Assembly (NCBI RefSeq): GCF_011634835.1
Contig: NZ_SIRP01000001.1
Span: 861,140 to 925,139 of the forward strand
From: Isoptericola sp. BMS4
Lineage (GTDB): Bacteria; Actinomycetota; Actinomycetes; Actinomycetales; Cellulomonadaceae
DNA length: 64,000 nt
Reading direction: 5' to 3'
In this document: one piece after another, positions 2,497 to 61,173 of the stretch
Position numbering within the stretch: position 1 is the stretch's first letter
Layout: each line of letters opens with the position of its first letter
Position numbers and translations under genes: made by a program
The notes under the pieces: generated by a model
Seen by the model: only the letters and a program-made list of their open reading frames with translations
What the model was told of the DNA's origin: nothing
The model's database searches: none

Positions 2497-4863
2497 ATGA
2501 CCGCCGCAAGCGCTGACGCCGTGCCCGCCCGCCCGCAGCCCGACCAGCAGCTGGACCAGCACCTCGACACCGTCGACCGCGCGGCCGCGACCCCGGACGA
2601 GTCGCTGCCGTACGCCGAGCTCGGCCTCAAGCCGGACGAGTGCCAGCGCATCCGCGACCTCCTGGGCCGACGGCCCACCGCCGCGGAGCTCGCCATGTAC
2701 TCCGTGATGTGGTCCGAGCACTGCTCGTACAAGTCGTCCAAGGTGCACCTGAAGAAGTTCGGCGACCGGGTCACCGACGAGATGACGGAGCACCTGCTCG
2801 TCGGCATCGGCGAGAACGCGGGTGTCGTCGACATCGGCGACGGCTGGGCCGTGACGTTCAAGGTCGAGTCGCACAACCACCCGTCGTTCGTGGAGCCCTA
2901 CCAGGGCGCGGCCACCGGGGTCGGCGGCATCGTGCGCGACATCATCTCCATGGGCGCCCGCCCGGTCGCGGTGATGGACCAGCTCCGGTTCGGCGACGTC
3001 GACCACCCCGACACCGCGCGCGTCGTGCACGGCGTCGTGTCCGGCGTCGGCGGCTACGGCAACTCCCTCGGCCTGCCCAACATCGGCGGCGAGCTCGTCT
3101 TCGACGGCTCCTACCAGGGCAACCCGCTCGTCAACGCGCTGTGCGTCGGCGTGCTGCGCCACGAGGACATCCACCTCGCCAACGCGTCCGGGGCGGGCAA
3201 CAAGGTGGTCCTCTTCGGCGCCCGCACCGGCGGCGACGGCATCGGCGGCGCCTCCATCCTCGCGTCGGAGACGTTCGAGGACGGCGTCCCCGCCAAGCGC
3301 CCCAGCGTGCAGGTGGGCGACCCCTTCATGGAGAAGGTCCTCATCGAGTGCTGCCTCGAGCTGTACGCGGCGCACGTGGTGGAGGGCATCCAGGACCTCG
3401 GCGCCGCCGGCATCTCCTGCGCCACGAGCGAGCTCGCCTCCAACGGCGACGGCGGCATGCACGTGTGGCTCGACGACGTCCTGCTGCGCGACCCGACGCT
3501 CAACGCCGGCGAGATCCTCATGTCGGAGTCGCAGGAGCGGATGATGGCCGTGGTCCGGCCGGAGAAGCTGGACGAGTTCCTCGCGATCACCGGCAAGTGG
3601 GACGTCGAGACCGCCGTCGTCGGCGAGGTCAACGACTCCGGCCGCCTGACGATCGACCACCACGGGCAGCGCATCGTCGACGTCGACCCGAGGACGGTCG
3701 CGCACGAGGGGCCCGTCTACGAGCGGCCGTACGCCCGCCCGGCGTGGCAGGACGCCCTGCAGGCCGACACCACCGTCGCCGCCGGCCTGGCGCGGCCGTC
3801 GTCGGGTGAGGAGCTCCGTGCCACGGCGCTGCGGCTGCTCGCCTCGCCCAACCTGGCGTCCCCGGCGTGGGTCACCGACCAGTACGACCGGTTCGTGCAA
3901 GGCAACACGGCCCTGGCGCAGCCGGACGACGGCGGCGTGGTCCGCGTCGACGAGACCACCGGTCGTGGCGTGGCCCTGGCGACCGACGCCAACGGTCGGT
4001 ACGGCAAGCTCGACCCGCGCACCGGCGCGCAGCTGGCCCTCGCCGAGGCGTACCGGAACGTCGCGACGACCGGCGCGAAGCCCCTGGCCGTCACCGACTG
4101 CCTCAACTTCGGCTCGCCCGAGCACCCCGACTCCATGTGGCAGCTCGTCGAGGCGATCGAGGGCCTCGCCGACGCCTGCCAGGAGCTCGGCGTCCCGGTG
4201 ACGGGCGGCAACGTCTCCCTGTACAACGGCACGGGCGAGCCGGGACAGATCGACTCCGCCATCCACCCCACGCCCGTCGTGGGCGTGCTCGGCGTGCTCG
4301 ACGACGTCCGCACCGCCGTCCCGTCCGGGTGGCAGCGGGCCGGCCTGGCCGTGCTGCTGCTCGGCGCGACCGCCGACGAGCTCGACGGCTCCGCCTGGGC
4401 CGAGGTGGAGCACGGGCACCTGGGCGGCCTGCCGCCGCGCGTGGACCTCGCCGCGGAGCGCTCCCTGGCGTCCGTGCTCGTCGGGGCCCGCGAGCAGGGG
4501 CTCGCCGAGGCCGCGCACGACCTGTCCGAGGGCGGCCTGGTCCAGGGCCTGCTGGAGGCGTCGCTGCGCTTCGGCGTCGGCGTGACCGCCGACCTGGCCG
4601 CCGTGACCGCACGCGACGGCGTGTCCCCCTTCGCGGCGCTGTTCAGCGAGTCGACGGCGCGCGTGCTCGTCGCCGTCGACCCGGCGCGCGAGGCGGAGCT
4701 CGTGTCCGCCGCCGAGGCGGCGGGCGTCCCGGTGGCCCGCGTCGGCGAGACCGGCGGCGAGGCGGTCGTCGTGTCGGGCGGCTTCGACGGCGGCACCTTC
4801 GAGATCGCGCTGGACGAGGCCCGCGAGGCGCACGAGGGCACACTGCCGCGCATCTTCGGCTGA
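2497..4863 (+). CDS. purL: phosphoribosylformylglycinamidine synthase subunit PurL
   Basis: 788 residues. ATP-dependent amidation of FGAR to FGAM, step 4 of de novo purine synthesis, in the cytoplasm. The sequence shows the PurL signature [10 protein letters not shown] near residues 72-81, Gly-rich AIRS-type motifs (TGGDGIGGA near 245) and two tandem PurM-like halves. It is the small-type PurL, which needs PurQ (glutaminase) and PurS; neither is in this window. ATG 2497 is preferred because GAGGGAAG lies just upstream; the frame extends to 2395 without a ribosome binding site. purF and purM lie about 10 kb downstream on the same strand. Confidence 0.95.
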
Positions 4864-5535: not shown

Positions 5536-7813
<2,278 letters not shown>

Positions 7814-7921
7814 GATATCTGGCTTCGTACACCCCTGTCGAAGACGGGTGCACAGTGCCGCCCCAGGGCCTTGCCGCGTCGTGCCGCGCCGTGTCGCCGC
7901 GCGTCGGGCGACCCGCATGGC

Positions 7922-7927
7922 TACCGT
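7922..7927 (+). promoter_or_regulatory. -10 element TACCGT, leaderless start of RNB gene
   Basis: TACCGT is followed by a 7-base spacer and GTG at 7935, the spacing of leaderless actinobacterial mRNAs. It favours GTG 7935 over the in-frame ATG at 7917. Confidence 0.45.
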
Positions 7928-7934
7928 CGGTGAC

Positions 7935-9434
7935 GTGCCGTCGCGTCTGCTGCATCTGACCCGCTCCGGTCCTGACGAGGTGACCGGGGCGCTCGCCGCC
8001 CTGCGGGCCGAGCTCCGGGTGCCGTCCATGTTCCCGGCGGAGGTCCGCGCGGAGGCCGAGGAGGCGGCGCGGTCCGGAGGGCGGCCGCCGGCCGCGATCA
8101 CCGGGGGCCGCAAGGACCCGGTGCGGTCCGACCGGCGCGACGTGGAGCTCGTCACGATCGACCCCGCCGGCTCGATGGACCTGGACCAGGCGGTGCACGT
8201 GGCGTCGTCCGGCCGCGGCTACATCGTGCGGTACGCGATCGCGGACGTGGCGGCGTTCGTCGAGCCGGACGGACCGCTGGACGCCGAGACGCACCGGCGC
8301 GGCGCCACCGTCTACGGCCCCGACGTGCGCACGCCGATGCTCCCGCCCGTGCTCTCGACCGGGGCGGCGAGCCTGCTGCCGGACCAGGACCGGCCCGCGG
8401 TGCTGTGGACGATCGCGCTGGACCCGAGCGGCGAGATCACGAGCGCCGCCGTGACGCGGGCGCTGGTGCGCTCGCGTGCGCGCATCACGTACGGCGAGGC
8501 GCAGTCGAGCCTCGACGCCGGCCTCGCCCCCGAGTCGCTGACGCTGCTCGCGGACGTGGGGCGGCTGCGGCAGGAGCGTGAGCGGGCGCGCGGCGGGGTC
8601 TCCCTCGACGTGCCGGAGCAGGAGGTCGTGCCGGGCCCCGACGGCGGCCTCGCGATCGAGATGCGCCGCACGCTGCCGGTCGAGGGCTGGAACGCGCAGA
8701 TCTCCCTGCTCACCGGCATCGCGGCCGCGGCGATGATGCGGGACGCGGGCGTGGGCCTGCTGCGGACGCTCCCGGAGCCGGAGCCGCGCGACGTCGCGCG
8801 GCTGCACGGCGTGGCCGCGGCGCTGGGCGTGACCTGGCCCGACGGCGTGCCCTACGCGGAGGTGCTGCGGACGCTGGAGTCGGGAAAGCCCGCCCATGCG
8901 GCGTTCCTCGCGGAGGCCACGTCCCTGTTCCGCGGTGCCGGGTACCTCGCGTTCGGGGTGCGTGGGGACGGGGCCGAGCAGAGCCTGCCGGCCGACGCCG
9001 CCCACGCGGCGATCGCCGCCGAGTACGCGCACGTCACCGCGCCGCTGCGGCGCCTGGCCGACCGGTACGCGACCGAGGTCTGCCTGGCCCACGCGGCGGG
9101 GCGGCCCGTGCCCGGTTGGGTGCGCGACGCGCTGCCGGAGCTGCCGGGCACGATGGCGACGACCGCCCGTCGCGCTTCCCGCTTCGAGCGCGGCTGCGTG
9201 GACGTGGTCGAGGCAGCCCTGCTCGAGGGACGCGTGGGCGAACGGTTCAGCGGCGTCGTCGTCGACGTCGACGACGCCCCGGACGACGGCGTCGGGCGCG
9301 GCGAGGTCATGCTCCGCGACCCGGCGGTGCGCGCGCCGCTCGAGGGCGCCGGGCTGCCGCTGGGGCAGCGGGTCGACGTGATTCTCAAGGAGGCCTCGGT
9401 GGCCGACCGCCGAGTGCGGTTCGCCCTCGCCTGA
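7935..9434 (+). CDS. RNB-domain (RNase II/R family) ribonuclease
   Basis: 499 residues. 3'-5' exoribonuclease family acting on RNA in the cytoplasm. The RNB core begins near residue 65; VTIDPAGSMDLDQAVHV (about 73-89) carries the Asp cluster that binds catalytic metal, followed by RYAIADVAAFVEPDG. The later HVTAPLRRLADRYATE matches the conserved end of RNB domains. The protein is shorter than RNase R and lacks clear cold-shock and S1 domains, as in many actinobacterial short RNB proteins. Start GTG 7935 is chosen from the -10 spacing; ATG 7917 is possible. Confidence 0.85.
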   Translation: MPSRLLHLTRSGPDEVTGALAALRAELRVPSMFPAEVRAEAEEAARSGGRPPAAITGGRKDPVRSDRRDVELVTIDPAGSMDLDQAVHVASSGRGYIVRYAIADVAAFVEPDGPLDAETHRRGATVYGPDVRTPMLPPVLSTGAASLLPDQDRPAVLWTIALDPSGEITSAAVTRALVRSRARITYGEAQSSLDAGLAPESLTLLADVGRLRQERERARGGVSLDVPEQEVVPGPDGGLAIEMRRTLPVEGWNAQISLLTGIAAAAMMRDAGVGLLRTLPEPEPRDVARLHGVAAALGVTWPDGVPYAEVLRTLESGKPAHAAFLAEATSLFRGAGYLAFGVRGDGAEQSLPADAAHAAIAAEYAHVTAPLRRLADRYATEVCLAHAAGRPVPGWVRDALPELPGTMATTARRASRFERGCVDVVEAALLEGRVGERFSGVVVDVDDAPDDGVGRGEVMLRDPAVRAPLEGAGLPLGQRVDVILKEASVADRRVRFALA

Positions 9435-58226: not shown

Positions 58227-58237
58227 GCGCTCAGCCG
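58220..58237. terminator. 18-base palindrome containing both stop codons of convergent genes
   Basis: CGGCTGAGCGCTCAGCCG. The hydrolase ends GGC-TGA at 58221-58226 and, on the minus strand, the ArsA-like gene ends GGC-TGA at 58231-58236. The stops are only 4 bases apart. Confidence 0.6.
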
Positions 58238-59199
58238 AGGTGCGCCGCCAGGCGGTCGAGGGCGGCCGGGCCGACGACGTCGTCGGCCTGCAGCGGCACC
58301 TCGTCGAGGGGCAGGTGACCCAGCGCCTCGCGCAGGGTGCGCAGGTGCGCGTCCTCCTGCGCGTGCCGGGCGGCGAGCAGCGCTCCGGCGTCGGCGGGGG
58401 AGCGCTTGTTCACGACGAGCCCGCCGACGGGCACCCGCAGGCCGTCGAGCTCGGCGCACAGCTCGATCGTCTCGGCGACGGGCAGGCGCTCGGCGGCGAG
58501 CACCACGACGAACGCCGTGGTGCCGGCGTCGGTGAGCACCTCGCGCAGCGTGGCGAACCGCGCGCGCCGGTCCTCCAGGACGCGGCGGATCTCGCCGTCG
58601 CGCCGGGCCTCGGCCTCGCCGCGGCCGCCGAGCATCTGCGCGGCGGCGCCGAGCCGCTCGGAACGGTCGCGTCGGCGCAGCAGCCCGTCGGTCCACGCGC
58701 CCATCGTCTCGGGCAGGGTGAGCAGGCGGGCCGTGTGCCCCGACGGCGCGGTGTCGAAGACGACGAGGTCGTGGCTCGCCAGGCCCTGCTCGACGGCGGT
58801 CGCCACCCGCTCCAGCACGGCGGCCTCGTGGGTGCCGGGCGCGTCGCGGGCCAGGTCGAGGTGGCGGTCCACCTCCCCGGCCAGGTGCGGGGCCACCAGG
58901 CGGTGCAGGGTCCGCCGCACCTGCGCCAGGTGCGCGTCGGCGGTGCGCGCCGGGTCGATCTCGACGCCGTCGAGCAGCCCGCCGCCCGGGAACGGCCCGG
59001 CGAGCCGGACGGCGTCGTCCCCGACGGGCCGCTCCCACAGGTGCCCGAGGTTGTGCGCGGGGTCGGTGGACACGAGGAGCACGCGGCGCCCGGTGCGCGC
59101 CTGCGCGAGGGCCACCGCTGAGGCGAGCGACGTCTTGCCGACGCCGCCCTTGCCGCCGAGGAACAGCACGCGCCGCCGCGCGGCGAGGTCTAGCAGCAC
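58231..59199 (-). CDS. ArsA/Get3-like P-loop ATPase (single domain)
   Basis: 322 residues. VLFLGGKGGVGKTSLA (P-loop, about 11-26), STDPAHNLGHLWE (switch I, about 44-56) and FDTAPSGHTARLLTLPE (switch II) match ArsA/Get3. It has one ATPase domain, unlike two-domain E. coli ArsA, and only one Cys (ELCAEL), so both the ArsA metalloid-binding cysteines and the Get3 CxxC zinc site are missing. The GTG 59199 start overlaps the end of the small Cys-Cys gene by 10 bases. Third gene of the cstA set. Confidence 0.85.
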   Translation of the reverse strand: MLLDLAARRRVLFLGGKGGVGKTSLASAVALAQARTGRRVLLVSTDPAHNLGHLWERPVGDDAVRLAGPFPGGGLLDGVEIDPARTADAHLAQVRRTLHRLVAPHLAGEVDRHLDLARDAPGTHEAAVLERVATAVEQGLASHDLVVFDTAPSGHTARLLTLPETMGAWTDGLLRRRDRSERLGAAAQMLGGRGEAEARRDGEIRRVLEDRRARFATLREVLTDAGTTAFVVVLAAERLPVAETIELCAELDGLRVPVGGLVVNKRSPADAGALLAARHAQEDAHLRTLREALGHLPLDEVPLQADDVVGPAALDRLAAHLG

Positions 59200-59453
59200 G
59201 ACACGTGCTCCAGGGGCGAGCGGTCCATGCCCATGCGGGTGTGCCACTCGTGCACGCGCTCCGCGACGAGCGGCAGCAGCTCGACGGTGTAGTACGAGGC
59301 CGGGTTGGGCACGCCGAGCGCCTCGGCGAGGACGACGACGGTGAACAGGTCGTCCTCGTCCCGCCGGGCGCCCGAGAGCGTGCGCCGGTACGGCGCCTCG
59401 TAGAGCTCCCGGAGCCCGGCGGACACCCCGCGCAAGCGGTCGCGCACGGTCAC
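59190..59453 (-). CDS. small Cys-Cys-ending protein (cory-CC-star family) beside cstA
   Basis: 87 residues, ending RSPLEHVSCC followed by TAG. The N-terminal part is helical and basic (RLRGVSAGLRELYEAPYRRT), with a conserved-looking ELLPLVAERVHEWHTRMGMD. It resembles the actinobacterial cory-CC-star proteins, named for the Cys-Cys-stop, found next to cstA and an ArsA-like gene. GTG 59453 lies 4 bases after the cstA stop. Its last codons overlap the ATPase gene start. Function unknown; the dicysteine may be redox-active or metal-binding. Confidence 0.85.
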   Translation of the reverse strand: MTVRDRLRGVSAGLRELYEAPYRRTLSGARRDEDDLFTVVVLAEALGVPNPASYYTVELLPLVAERVHEWHTRMGMDRSPLEHVSCC

Positions 59454-59457
59454 GACG

Positions 59458-61173
59458 TCACGCCCGCTCGTCGCCTCCGCCGGCCGACGACGCCAGCACC
59501 GGCTCGTCCGTCTCGGGGTCGAAGTCGCCCCGGCGCGCCGCGCGCATGGCGATCGCGGACTCCAGCGCCACCCACAGGGACGCGACGAGGATGACGACGT
59601 CCAGGCCGAGCAGCAGCCAGCTGCGGTCCGCCCAGAAGGTGCCGAGCTGCACGACCAGCGCGTAGATCGACATGACGAGCACGAAGACCAGCGGGACGAG
59701 CACGGGCAGCGGGTTGCGCTTCTTGCGCAGCAGGACCACCGCGACGATCGCGAGGGTCAGCGACGCCAGGAGCTGGTTGGTGGTGCCGAACAGCGGCCAG
59801 ATGAGCAGCCCGCCGGAGCCGTCCCCGCCGGCGCTGAACGTCAGGCCGACCGCGACGACGAGCACGATCACGGTGGCCCAGCCCTTGGGGACCCGGACCC
59901 CGAGGACCTCGCCGGCCTCCTGCACGACGAACCGCTGCAGGCGCACGCCCGTGTCCATGGTGGTGGCGGCGAACAGCACCGCCATCGTCGCGAGGATCGT
60001 CGCCGACAGCGAGGCGGGGATGCCCAGGCCCGCGTTGACGATGGAGGCGCCGCCCGAGACGAACGCGGACACGCCGCCCTCGTTGAAGGCGCTGTACACG
60101 GCCTCCCAGTCGGCGAGGGTCCGGTAGCCGGCCGTGGCGGCGATGATCGCGCCGAGCGCCAGCATGCCCTCGCCGACCGCGCCGAAGTAGCCGACGAACC
60201 GGCCGTCGGTCTCGGAGTCGAGCTGCTTGGCCGACGTGCCCGACGCGACCATGCCGTGGAAGCCGGAGATGGCGCCGCAGGCGATGGTGACGAACAGCAG
60301 CGGCACCAGGCTCGGCGTGCCCTCGGGCACGTCCTGGTTGATCGCGGGGGCCACGACGGCCGGGCTGGCGAACAGCACGGACAGGTAGAGGATCCCCAGG
60401 CCGATGAACAGCTGCACGCCGTTGATGTAGTCGCGCGGCTGCAGCAGCACCCACACCGGCAGCAGCGAGGCGATGCCCGCGTAGACGAACAGGGCCACGA
60501 TCCAGAACGTGGCGGGGGACATCCCGAGGACCGGGTCCGGCAGCACGACCGGGAACCGGTCGCCGACGACGATCAGCGTGTACAGCGCGACGACGCCGAT
60601 CACGGTGGTGACCAGCAGGTTGATCTTCCAGCGGTAGATCATCTGGCCGATGACCGCGGCGACGACGATCGCGCCCCAGACGGGGATGACCGACGACGGG
60701 GTCGAGATCAGCAGGTTCTTGATGACGGTGGCGAACGCCGCCACGACCATGAGCAGCAGCAGGAAGATGACGACGAGGAACAGGTTGCGGCCCCGCGCTC
60801 CGATGTAGCGGCCGGAGAGCATGCCCATCGACTGGCCCCGGTTGCGCACGGACGCCCACAGGGCACCCATGTCGTGCATGCCGGCGAAGAAGACGGTGCC
60901 GAGCGTGACCCACAGGAACGCGGGCAGCCAGCCCCAGATGACGGCCACCGCCGGCCCGACGATCGGGGCGGCGCCCGCGACGGAGGTGAAGTGGTGCCCC
61001 CACAGCACGAACTTGTTGGTGGGGACGTAGTCCACCCCGTCGGACAGCTCGTGGGCGGGGGTGCGGAAGCCCGCGGCGAGCCGGTAGACGCGCCTGCCGA
61101 GGTACTTCGAGTACAGGAAGTACCCGGCCAGCATCATCGCCAGCCCCACCAGCATGAGGACCAGGGAGTTCAT
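59458..61173 (-). CDS. cstA: carbon starvation protein A (CstA), pyruvate/peptide transporter
   Basis: 571 residues with about 16 hydrophobic segments. CstA signatures: VDYVPTNKFVLWGHHFTSVA, AGAAPIVGPAVAVIWGWLPA, RDYINGVQLFIGLG and FGTTNQLLASLTL. In E. coli CstA imports pyruvate and peptides on starvation. ATG 61173. TAGAAT at 61233-61238 (minus strand) is a likely -10 box with a hairpin at the transcript start. A GTGA-N6-TCAC site lies 100 bases upstream of that start. Followed by the Cys-Cys and ATPase genes. Confidence 0.95.
   Translation of the reverse strand: MNSLVLMLVGLAMMLAGYFLYSKYLGRRVYRLAAGFRTPAHELSDGVDYVPTNKFVLWGHHFTSVAGAAPIVGPAVAVIWGWLPAFLWVTLGTVFFAGMHDMGALWASVRNRGQSMGMLSGRYIGARGRNLFLVVIFLLLLMVVAAFATVIKNLLISTPSSVIPVWGAIVVAAVIGQMIYRWKINLLVTTVIGVVALYTLIVVGDRFPVVLPDPVLGMSPATFWIVALFVYAGIASLLPVWVLLQPRDYINGVQLFIGLGILYLSVLFASPAVVAPAINQDVPEGTPSLVPLLFVTIACGAISGFHGMVASGTSAKQLDSETDGRFVGYFGAVGEGMLALGAIIAATAGYRTLADWEAVYSAFNEGGVSAFVSGGASIVNAGLGIPASLSATILATMAVLFAATTMDTGVRLQRFVVQEAGEVLGVRVPKGWATVIVLVVAVGLTFSAGGDGSGGLLIWPLFGTTNQLLASLTLAIVAVVLLRKKRNPLPVLVPLVFVLVMSIYALVVQLGTFWADRSWLLLGLDVVILVASLWVALESAIAMRAARRGDFDPETDEPVLASSAGGGDERA

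Follow-up and report, generated by a model that had tools for sequence, protein, structure and literature searches.

A window of 64,000 nucleotides from Isoptericola sp. BMS4 (contig NZ_SIRP01000001.1, positions 861,140 to 925,139; positions in the window are used below) carries a tightly packed trio of minus-strand genes for a short-type carbon starvation protein A (CstA), a small protein ending in Cys-Cys (CC-star) and an ATPase of the ArsA/GET3 family. The sampled CstAs form two clades with different partners, the long ones with YbdD/Sel_put and the short ones with CC-star and the ATPase. What is added here is that the two small partner families, one for each CstA branch and without detectable homology to each other, have the same Cys-Cys end. 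The window locus itself is an ordinary member of the already described CstA-CstX-ArsA system (Castillo and Saier 2010, PMC2963123), and the trio most likely represents the CstA-YbdD uptake system in an ATP-linked form.

Nutrient carriers of the CstA type are widespread, and their small partner is needed yet unexplained. If a demand of the carrier explains the shared dithiol, the functions of YbdD, of the DUF466 selenoproteins ending in Cys-selenocysteine (Cys-Sec) and of CC-star become one question. Furthermore, should the ATPase power the short CstA, energising of the ArsA type would exist outside arsenic resistance, as was proposed in 2010. The trio consists of the following features:

59458..61173, minus strand: cstA, short-type carbon starvation protein A, 571 amino acids, PF02554, predicted carrier of the APC/LeuT-type fold
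60277..60279, minus strand: codon of CstA Cys299 in the motif ACGAxSGFH, the sole conserved Cys of the family
59454-59457: intergenic gap of 4 bases between cstA and the CC-star gene
59190..59453, minus strand: CC-star small protein, 87 amino acids, GTG start, ending HVSCC-stop (NF041419, cory-CC-star)
59193..59198, minus strand: codons of the C-terminal Cys86-Cys87, immediately 5' of the stop
58231..59199, minus strand: single-domain ArsA/GET3-family ATPase, 322 amino acids from the GTG at 59199 (TIGR00345, PF02374)

The dicysteine end of the small proteins

The CC-star frame ends in Cys-Cys in all 91 loci that contain it, corresponding to 87 distinct genes; 93 loci were given, two of which were orphan-cstA loci without CC-star, and four genes were fetched twice. 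As a background, only 5 of 500 greedily chosen long open reading frames (ORFs) from 80 loci have such an end, and all five are CC-star frames. The Sel_put family shows the same end in 19 of the 19 sequences printed (6 rows repeat a gene), among them YbdD of Escherichia coli with the C-terminus GGARCC. Nevertheless, no common ancestry of CC-star and Sel_put is detectable, as the probability given by hhalign stays below 1 % (0.1 % in global and 0.9 % in local mode). An earlier note, made from the window alone, had attributed a Cys-Cys end to YbdD, had proposed that two unrelated small proteins beside CstA share it and had named its conservation as a check; all of this is borne out by the invariant ends. 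By eye, the tails of both families have a Trp near −17/−18, an Arg near −15/−16 and a Pro at −6/−8 in common, a weak resemblance.

A chemical role of the tail is suggested by relatives of YbdD. DUF466 proteins of Epsilonproteobacteria are described with a C-terminal Cys-Sec (PMC4607533), and a review from 2026 lists the Cys-Sec-ending DUF466 proteins as KCU-star, NF033934 (PMC13188914). Sec would hardly take the place of Cys if the residue had no part in thiol or redox chemistry, and the Cys-Sec ends thus argue for such chemistry at the tail. A Cys-Sec end among relatives of CC-star did not come to light: the 2.5 kb behind ten partnerless CstAs contain no frame of at least 40 codons that ends in Cys-Cys or in Cys-TGA and then a stop. 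The predicted model of CC-star consists of helices at residues 3-45, 51-55 and 57-73, followed by an unstructured tail of 14 residues. The highest Kyte-Doolittle mean over 19 residues is 1.21 in the window protein and 0.67-1.28 across 34 sequences; in the absence of a strongly hydrophobic segment CC-star is therefore not an obvious tail-anchored client.

Two CstA branches and the linkage of the trio

Long and short CstAs differ already in their matches to PF02554. Long CstAs match in one piece, mostly with E <1e-240 and in some cases of the order sample with 1e-167 to 1e-211, whereas short ones match in two pieces with E about 1e-107 to 1e-117 (order and class samples). In the class sample a long CstA was found in 25 of 98 genomes and Sel_put in 21, each just downstream of a long CstA (in G079 this CstA is cut by the contig end); short CstAs occur in six of these genomes, four of them with CC-star. 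CC-star occupies beside the short CstA the place that YbdD has beside the long one. Sel_put (PF04328) has no match in the genome of the window and is absent from 19 of 20 CC-star genomes, the twentieth being G218, where a long CstA lies beside Sel_put. Both small proteins are present in G218 and G089 (loci L030, L144 and L149), each next to its own CstA type; L030 is the short pair of G218.

A midpoint-rooted tree of 79 CstAs reflects the exchange of partners. The 47 CstAs with CC-star and ATPase form one clade together with three partnerless proteins, and the 19 with Sel_put form another (support 1.0) together with six that a profile had labelled partnerless. Among these six, L097 has a Pfam match to Sel_put and L114 is cut by the contig end, which leaves four true orphans.

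The best 80 of 214 genome stretches encoding a CC-star relative, i.e. those closest to the window protein, served as the 80-locus set; the locus sets from the genome samples contain some genes twice. The ATPase gene follows CC-star in 80 of 80 loci and cstA precedes it in 79. The exception, from a metagenome-assembled genome (MAG) of Aquisalimonas (L057, 2857-4133), encodes CC-star and the ATPase, and the upstream 2.8 kb contain no cstA; a short cstA is located on another contig of the same genome. These 80 loci span many actinobacterial genera, Psychrobacter, Natronospirillum, one Granulosicoccaceae strain and MAGs, and plasmid records add Pseudochrobactrum, Paracoccus and Cytobacillus. In 37 diverse loci, in which the CC-star and ATPase ORFs were told apart by profiles, both genes are present throughout and CstA in 36. 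The ORF clusters found in at least nine of these loci overlap the trio itself (174 of 179 members in the cluster covering 34 loci), and no further conserved neighbour gene was found in more than six of the 37.

The genome samples, in which the bias is smaller, give the same picture. CC-star is encoded in 13 of the 119 genomes of the order sample, always preceded by a short CstA and followed by an ArsA match (13/13); short CstAs occur in 15 genomes, and Fisher's exact test for the co-occurrence of CC-star and short CstA gives p 1.3e-15, uncorrected for relatedness. Four of the 98 class-sample genomes have CC-star, in each case adjoining a short CstA. The distribution is patchy, since only 2 of 143 genomes of the gammaproteobacterial sample, one of them the centre of the sample, encode CC-star. 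Neither CC-star nor a CstA match was found in G136, which belongs to the same genus as the window, and Haloferax volcanii, a control row, stayed below the NF041419 cut-off. No small partner was detected in the flanks taken of three haloarchaeal plasmid CstAs, and no relative of CC-star or CstA on viral contigs could be confirmed.

Short CstAs without partners lack the whole set. No ArsA match lies near cstA in G112 and G139, and neither CC-star nor the ATPase is present in the fetched flanks of the short CstA in G019 and G090. Hence CC-star and the ATPase show an all-or-none co-occurrence, being present or absent together. Behind one orphan short cstA (L141, 2285-3217) lies a long GC-rich stretch, the translation of which repeats one short unit many times; it resembles a tandem repeat more than a credible gene.

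In the window, CstA matches PF02554 with 440.8 bits (cut-off 27), the small protein NF041419 with 124.1 bits (cut-off 80) over profile positions 3-80 of 80 including the CC end, and the ATPase matches TIGR00345 (GET3/ArsA/TRC40) with 203.6 bits (cut-off 135) and PF02374 (ArsA_ATPase) with 177.6 bits. The GTG start of the ATPase (59199) lies inside the CC-star gene with an overlap of 10 bases; a longer form might start in frame at a GTG at 59247. The layout of the trio had been described in the earlier note, each checkable point of which proved accurate, and the grouping into one module proposed there is supported by the survey of neighbours, including the short cstA elsewhere in the Aquisalimonas genome. 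The genes on either side of the trio lie on the opposite strand and encode a membrane pyrophosphatase and an alpha/beta hydrolase; no RNA element, sigma-70 promoter or terminator was found in the locus.

A few loci deviate in detail. In Natronospirillum (L064, 4354-9073) a second short CstA follows directly after the ATPase on the same strand (CstA, CC-star, ATPase, CstA). In Cytobacillus spongiae (L154) an unnamed protein of 95 residues, not ending in Cys, is encoded between cstA and CC-star (3693-3980), and the trio and a peptidase gene are followed by genes for a metal-sensitive regulator and TusA-like sulfurtransferases (6843-8261), which do not recur elsewhere. The cstA match is broken into two pieces in L073, L075 and L018, in L073 also that of the ATPase, as expected from a frame break or an assembly error.

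A proposed mechanism and its alternatives

The predicted model of CstA is a complete carrier of the APC/LeuT type, with fold matches over most of the carrier; a search by sequence for a solved CstA structure returned none at E 0.1 or better. Its Cys299 is invariant: the column holds Cys in 94 of 94 CstA rows, nine of them long CstAs, and in 79 of 79 proteins of the tree (47 CC-type, 19 Sel_put-type and 13 partnerless). As residues 300-315 of the model have a predicted local distance difference test score (pLDDT) <50, any placement of this Cys with respect to the substrate site is tentative. The ATP site of the ATPase is intact, with the motifs GGKGGVGKT, STDPAH and DTAPxGHTxRL conserved in an alignment of 84 rows. 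None of its columns has Cys in at least 30 % of the rows, and the window protein is without CxxC, the zinc motif of GET3 tail-anchor chaperones; the absence of both the Get3 and the ArsA cysteines agrees with what had been noticed in the window. To the arsenite pump family TIGR04291 it matches with 121.4 bits (cut-off 650), having one domain instead of two, and it is far under the cut-offs of BagA, BagB and NosAFP.

Our preferred explanation, judged slightly less likely than not, is that the trio is one uptake system in which the carrier is ATP-driven or ATP-gated, CC-star is the adaptor and its thiol tail performs a redox or thiol step. Placed at the cytoplasmic face of CstA, CC-star would recruit the ATPase as a homodimer. 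By binding and hydrolysing ATP, the latter might then drive or gate CstA in the manner of ArsA acting on ArsB, and a secondary carrier with pyruvate-like compounds or peptides as substrates would thereby become ATP-dependent; this choice of substrates is suggested solely by the CstA of E. coli. The flexible tail with two neighbouring thiols could act as a redox switch or provide a thiol or metal contact. Such a step would be common to both CstA branches and independent of the ATPase: since the dithiol is found in both branches and the ATPase in one, the tail chemistry seems to belong to the basic cycle or control of the carrier and the ATPase to be an addition.

Several points weigh against this uptake system. 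Carriers of the APC fold normally work without an ATPase. Confidence in the CC-star model is low (pLDDT 67.7, predicted template modelling score 0.33), and the clade of the CC-type CstAs has a support of only 0.74 on the midpoint-rooted tree. Partnerless CstAs exist among the short (2 of 15 genomes in the order sample, 2 of 6 in the class sample) and the long ones (4 of 25 in the class sample), so that not every CstA requires the tail. Cys299 is retained in the partnerless CstAs and must therefore have a function other than with the tail; this makes a contact between tail and Cys299 less likely.

It is rather unlikely that the ATPase is instead a regulator, with CstA remaining a proton-coupled secondary carrier that the ATPase and CC-star open or close in response to ATP or redox state. 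The modelled complete carrier fold is consistent with this, as are the long and the orphan short CstAs without a linked ATPase; however, the all-or-none co-occurrence of CC-star and ATPase fits a regulator and an energiser alike.

A role of the ATPase as a Get3-like chaperone, which escorts or assembles CC-star or CstA at the membrane outside the transport cycle, must be judged unlikely as well. GET3 and archaeal Get3-like proteins are, beside ArsA, among its closest solved relatives, its single domain has the size of a homodimer-type protein (PF02374) and TIGR00345 spans both functions. Nevertheless, CxxC is missing, the hydropathy of CC-star is not that of an obvious tail-anchored client and a general chaperone would not be bound to a single operon.

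Less probable still is a carrier gated in trans, where the tail dithiol (a thiol-selenol in the DUF466 relatives) enters CstA and reacts, or shares a metal or disulfide, with Cys299. Two unrelated families would then have converged on the tail by demand of the carrier, and the ATPase of the short branch would add control by ATP.

That the dithiol is a metal or metalloid site comparable to the vicinal cysteines of ArsD, with the system moving a metal, a metalloid or a metal chelate, appears improbable. An ArsA-family ATPase does adjoin a vicinal-Cys protein, in likeness to ArsD, and the proteins that resemble CstA in fold include, with many others, the Nramp metal carriers. On the other hand, the ATPase has no conserved Cys to take over a metalloid, ars genes are neither present by the window trio nor recurrent near the trio in the 37 loci, and the YbdD branch transports pyruvate (PMC5847655).

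Finally, the Cys-Cys end could have been retained only because its codons hold the start of the overlapping ATPase gene. Among the 74 loci where this start could be placed, 29 have it within the CC codons with the 10-base overlap; the idea can practically be dismissed, as it is contradicted by the 42 of 74 loci in which the first ATPase start does not overlap while 91 of 91 end in Cys-Cys, and by the 19 of 19 Sel_put ends without an ATPase gene behind them.

Comparison with known systems

The association of CstA, a small protein and an ArsA homologue was described by Castillo and Saier (2010, PMC2963123), who counted 26 cases in which CstA occurs with an ArsA homologue, the small protein CstX being present in 24, found matching trees for the three proteins and proposed that ArsA energises CstA via CstX. 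The earlier note had supposed a new system; both the association and its energising by ATP are in that publication, and NCBIfam already has a named family for the small protein. Those operons share with the locus described here the adjacent cstA, a gene for about 90 amino acids and an ArsA homologue with one domain and about 330 amino acids, without ars genes. Since their cluster 18 lists Psychrobacter and Brevibacterium, CstX is probably CC-star, a conclusion drawn from the organisms rather than from compared sequences; the Psychrobacter loci analysed here carry the trio with CC-star in the middle. The archaeal CstX (cluster 14) was called a protein with a single transmembrane segment, whereas the hydropathy of the 34 CC-star sequences, archaeal CstX not being among them, shows none. 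In the part of the 2010 text available, neither the Cys-Cys end nor YbdD is mentioned. No experimental study of the trio was found in the open-access literature, a search that leaves out most subscription papers.

GET3/TRC40 and the bacterial Get3-like proteins (BagA/BagB, NosAFP) have the TIGR00345 family and the nucleotide motifs in common with the ATPase, which differs in lacking CxxC and in being tied to a transporter operon. The arsenite pump ArsA-ArsB-ArsD likewise combines a secondary carrier, an ArsA-family ATPase and a small vicinal-Cys protein, the cysteines of ArsD handing arsenite to ArsA. However, its carrier and small protein belong to other families, and the ATPase of the trio has one domain and lacks the metalloid cysteines.

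Pyruvate uptake in E. coli falls to 20 % of wild type by deletion of ybdD and to 13 % by deletion of cstA (PMC5847655). The CstA-YbdD pair has the same order of CstA and a short Cys-Cys-ending protein and the same invariant CstA Cys, but it differs in the long CstA, the Sel_put partner and the absence of an ATPase gene from the annotated flanks. BtsT-YjiX of E. coli is a further system like CstA-YbdD.

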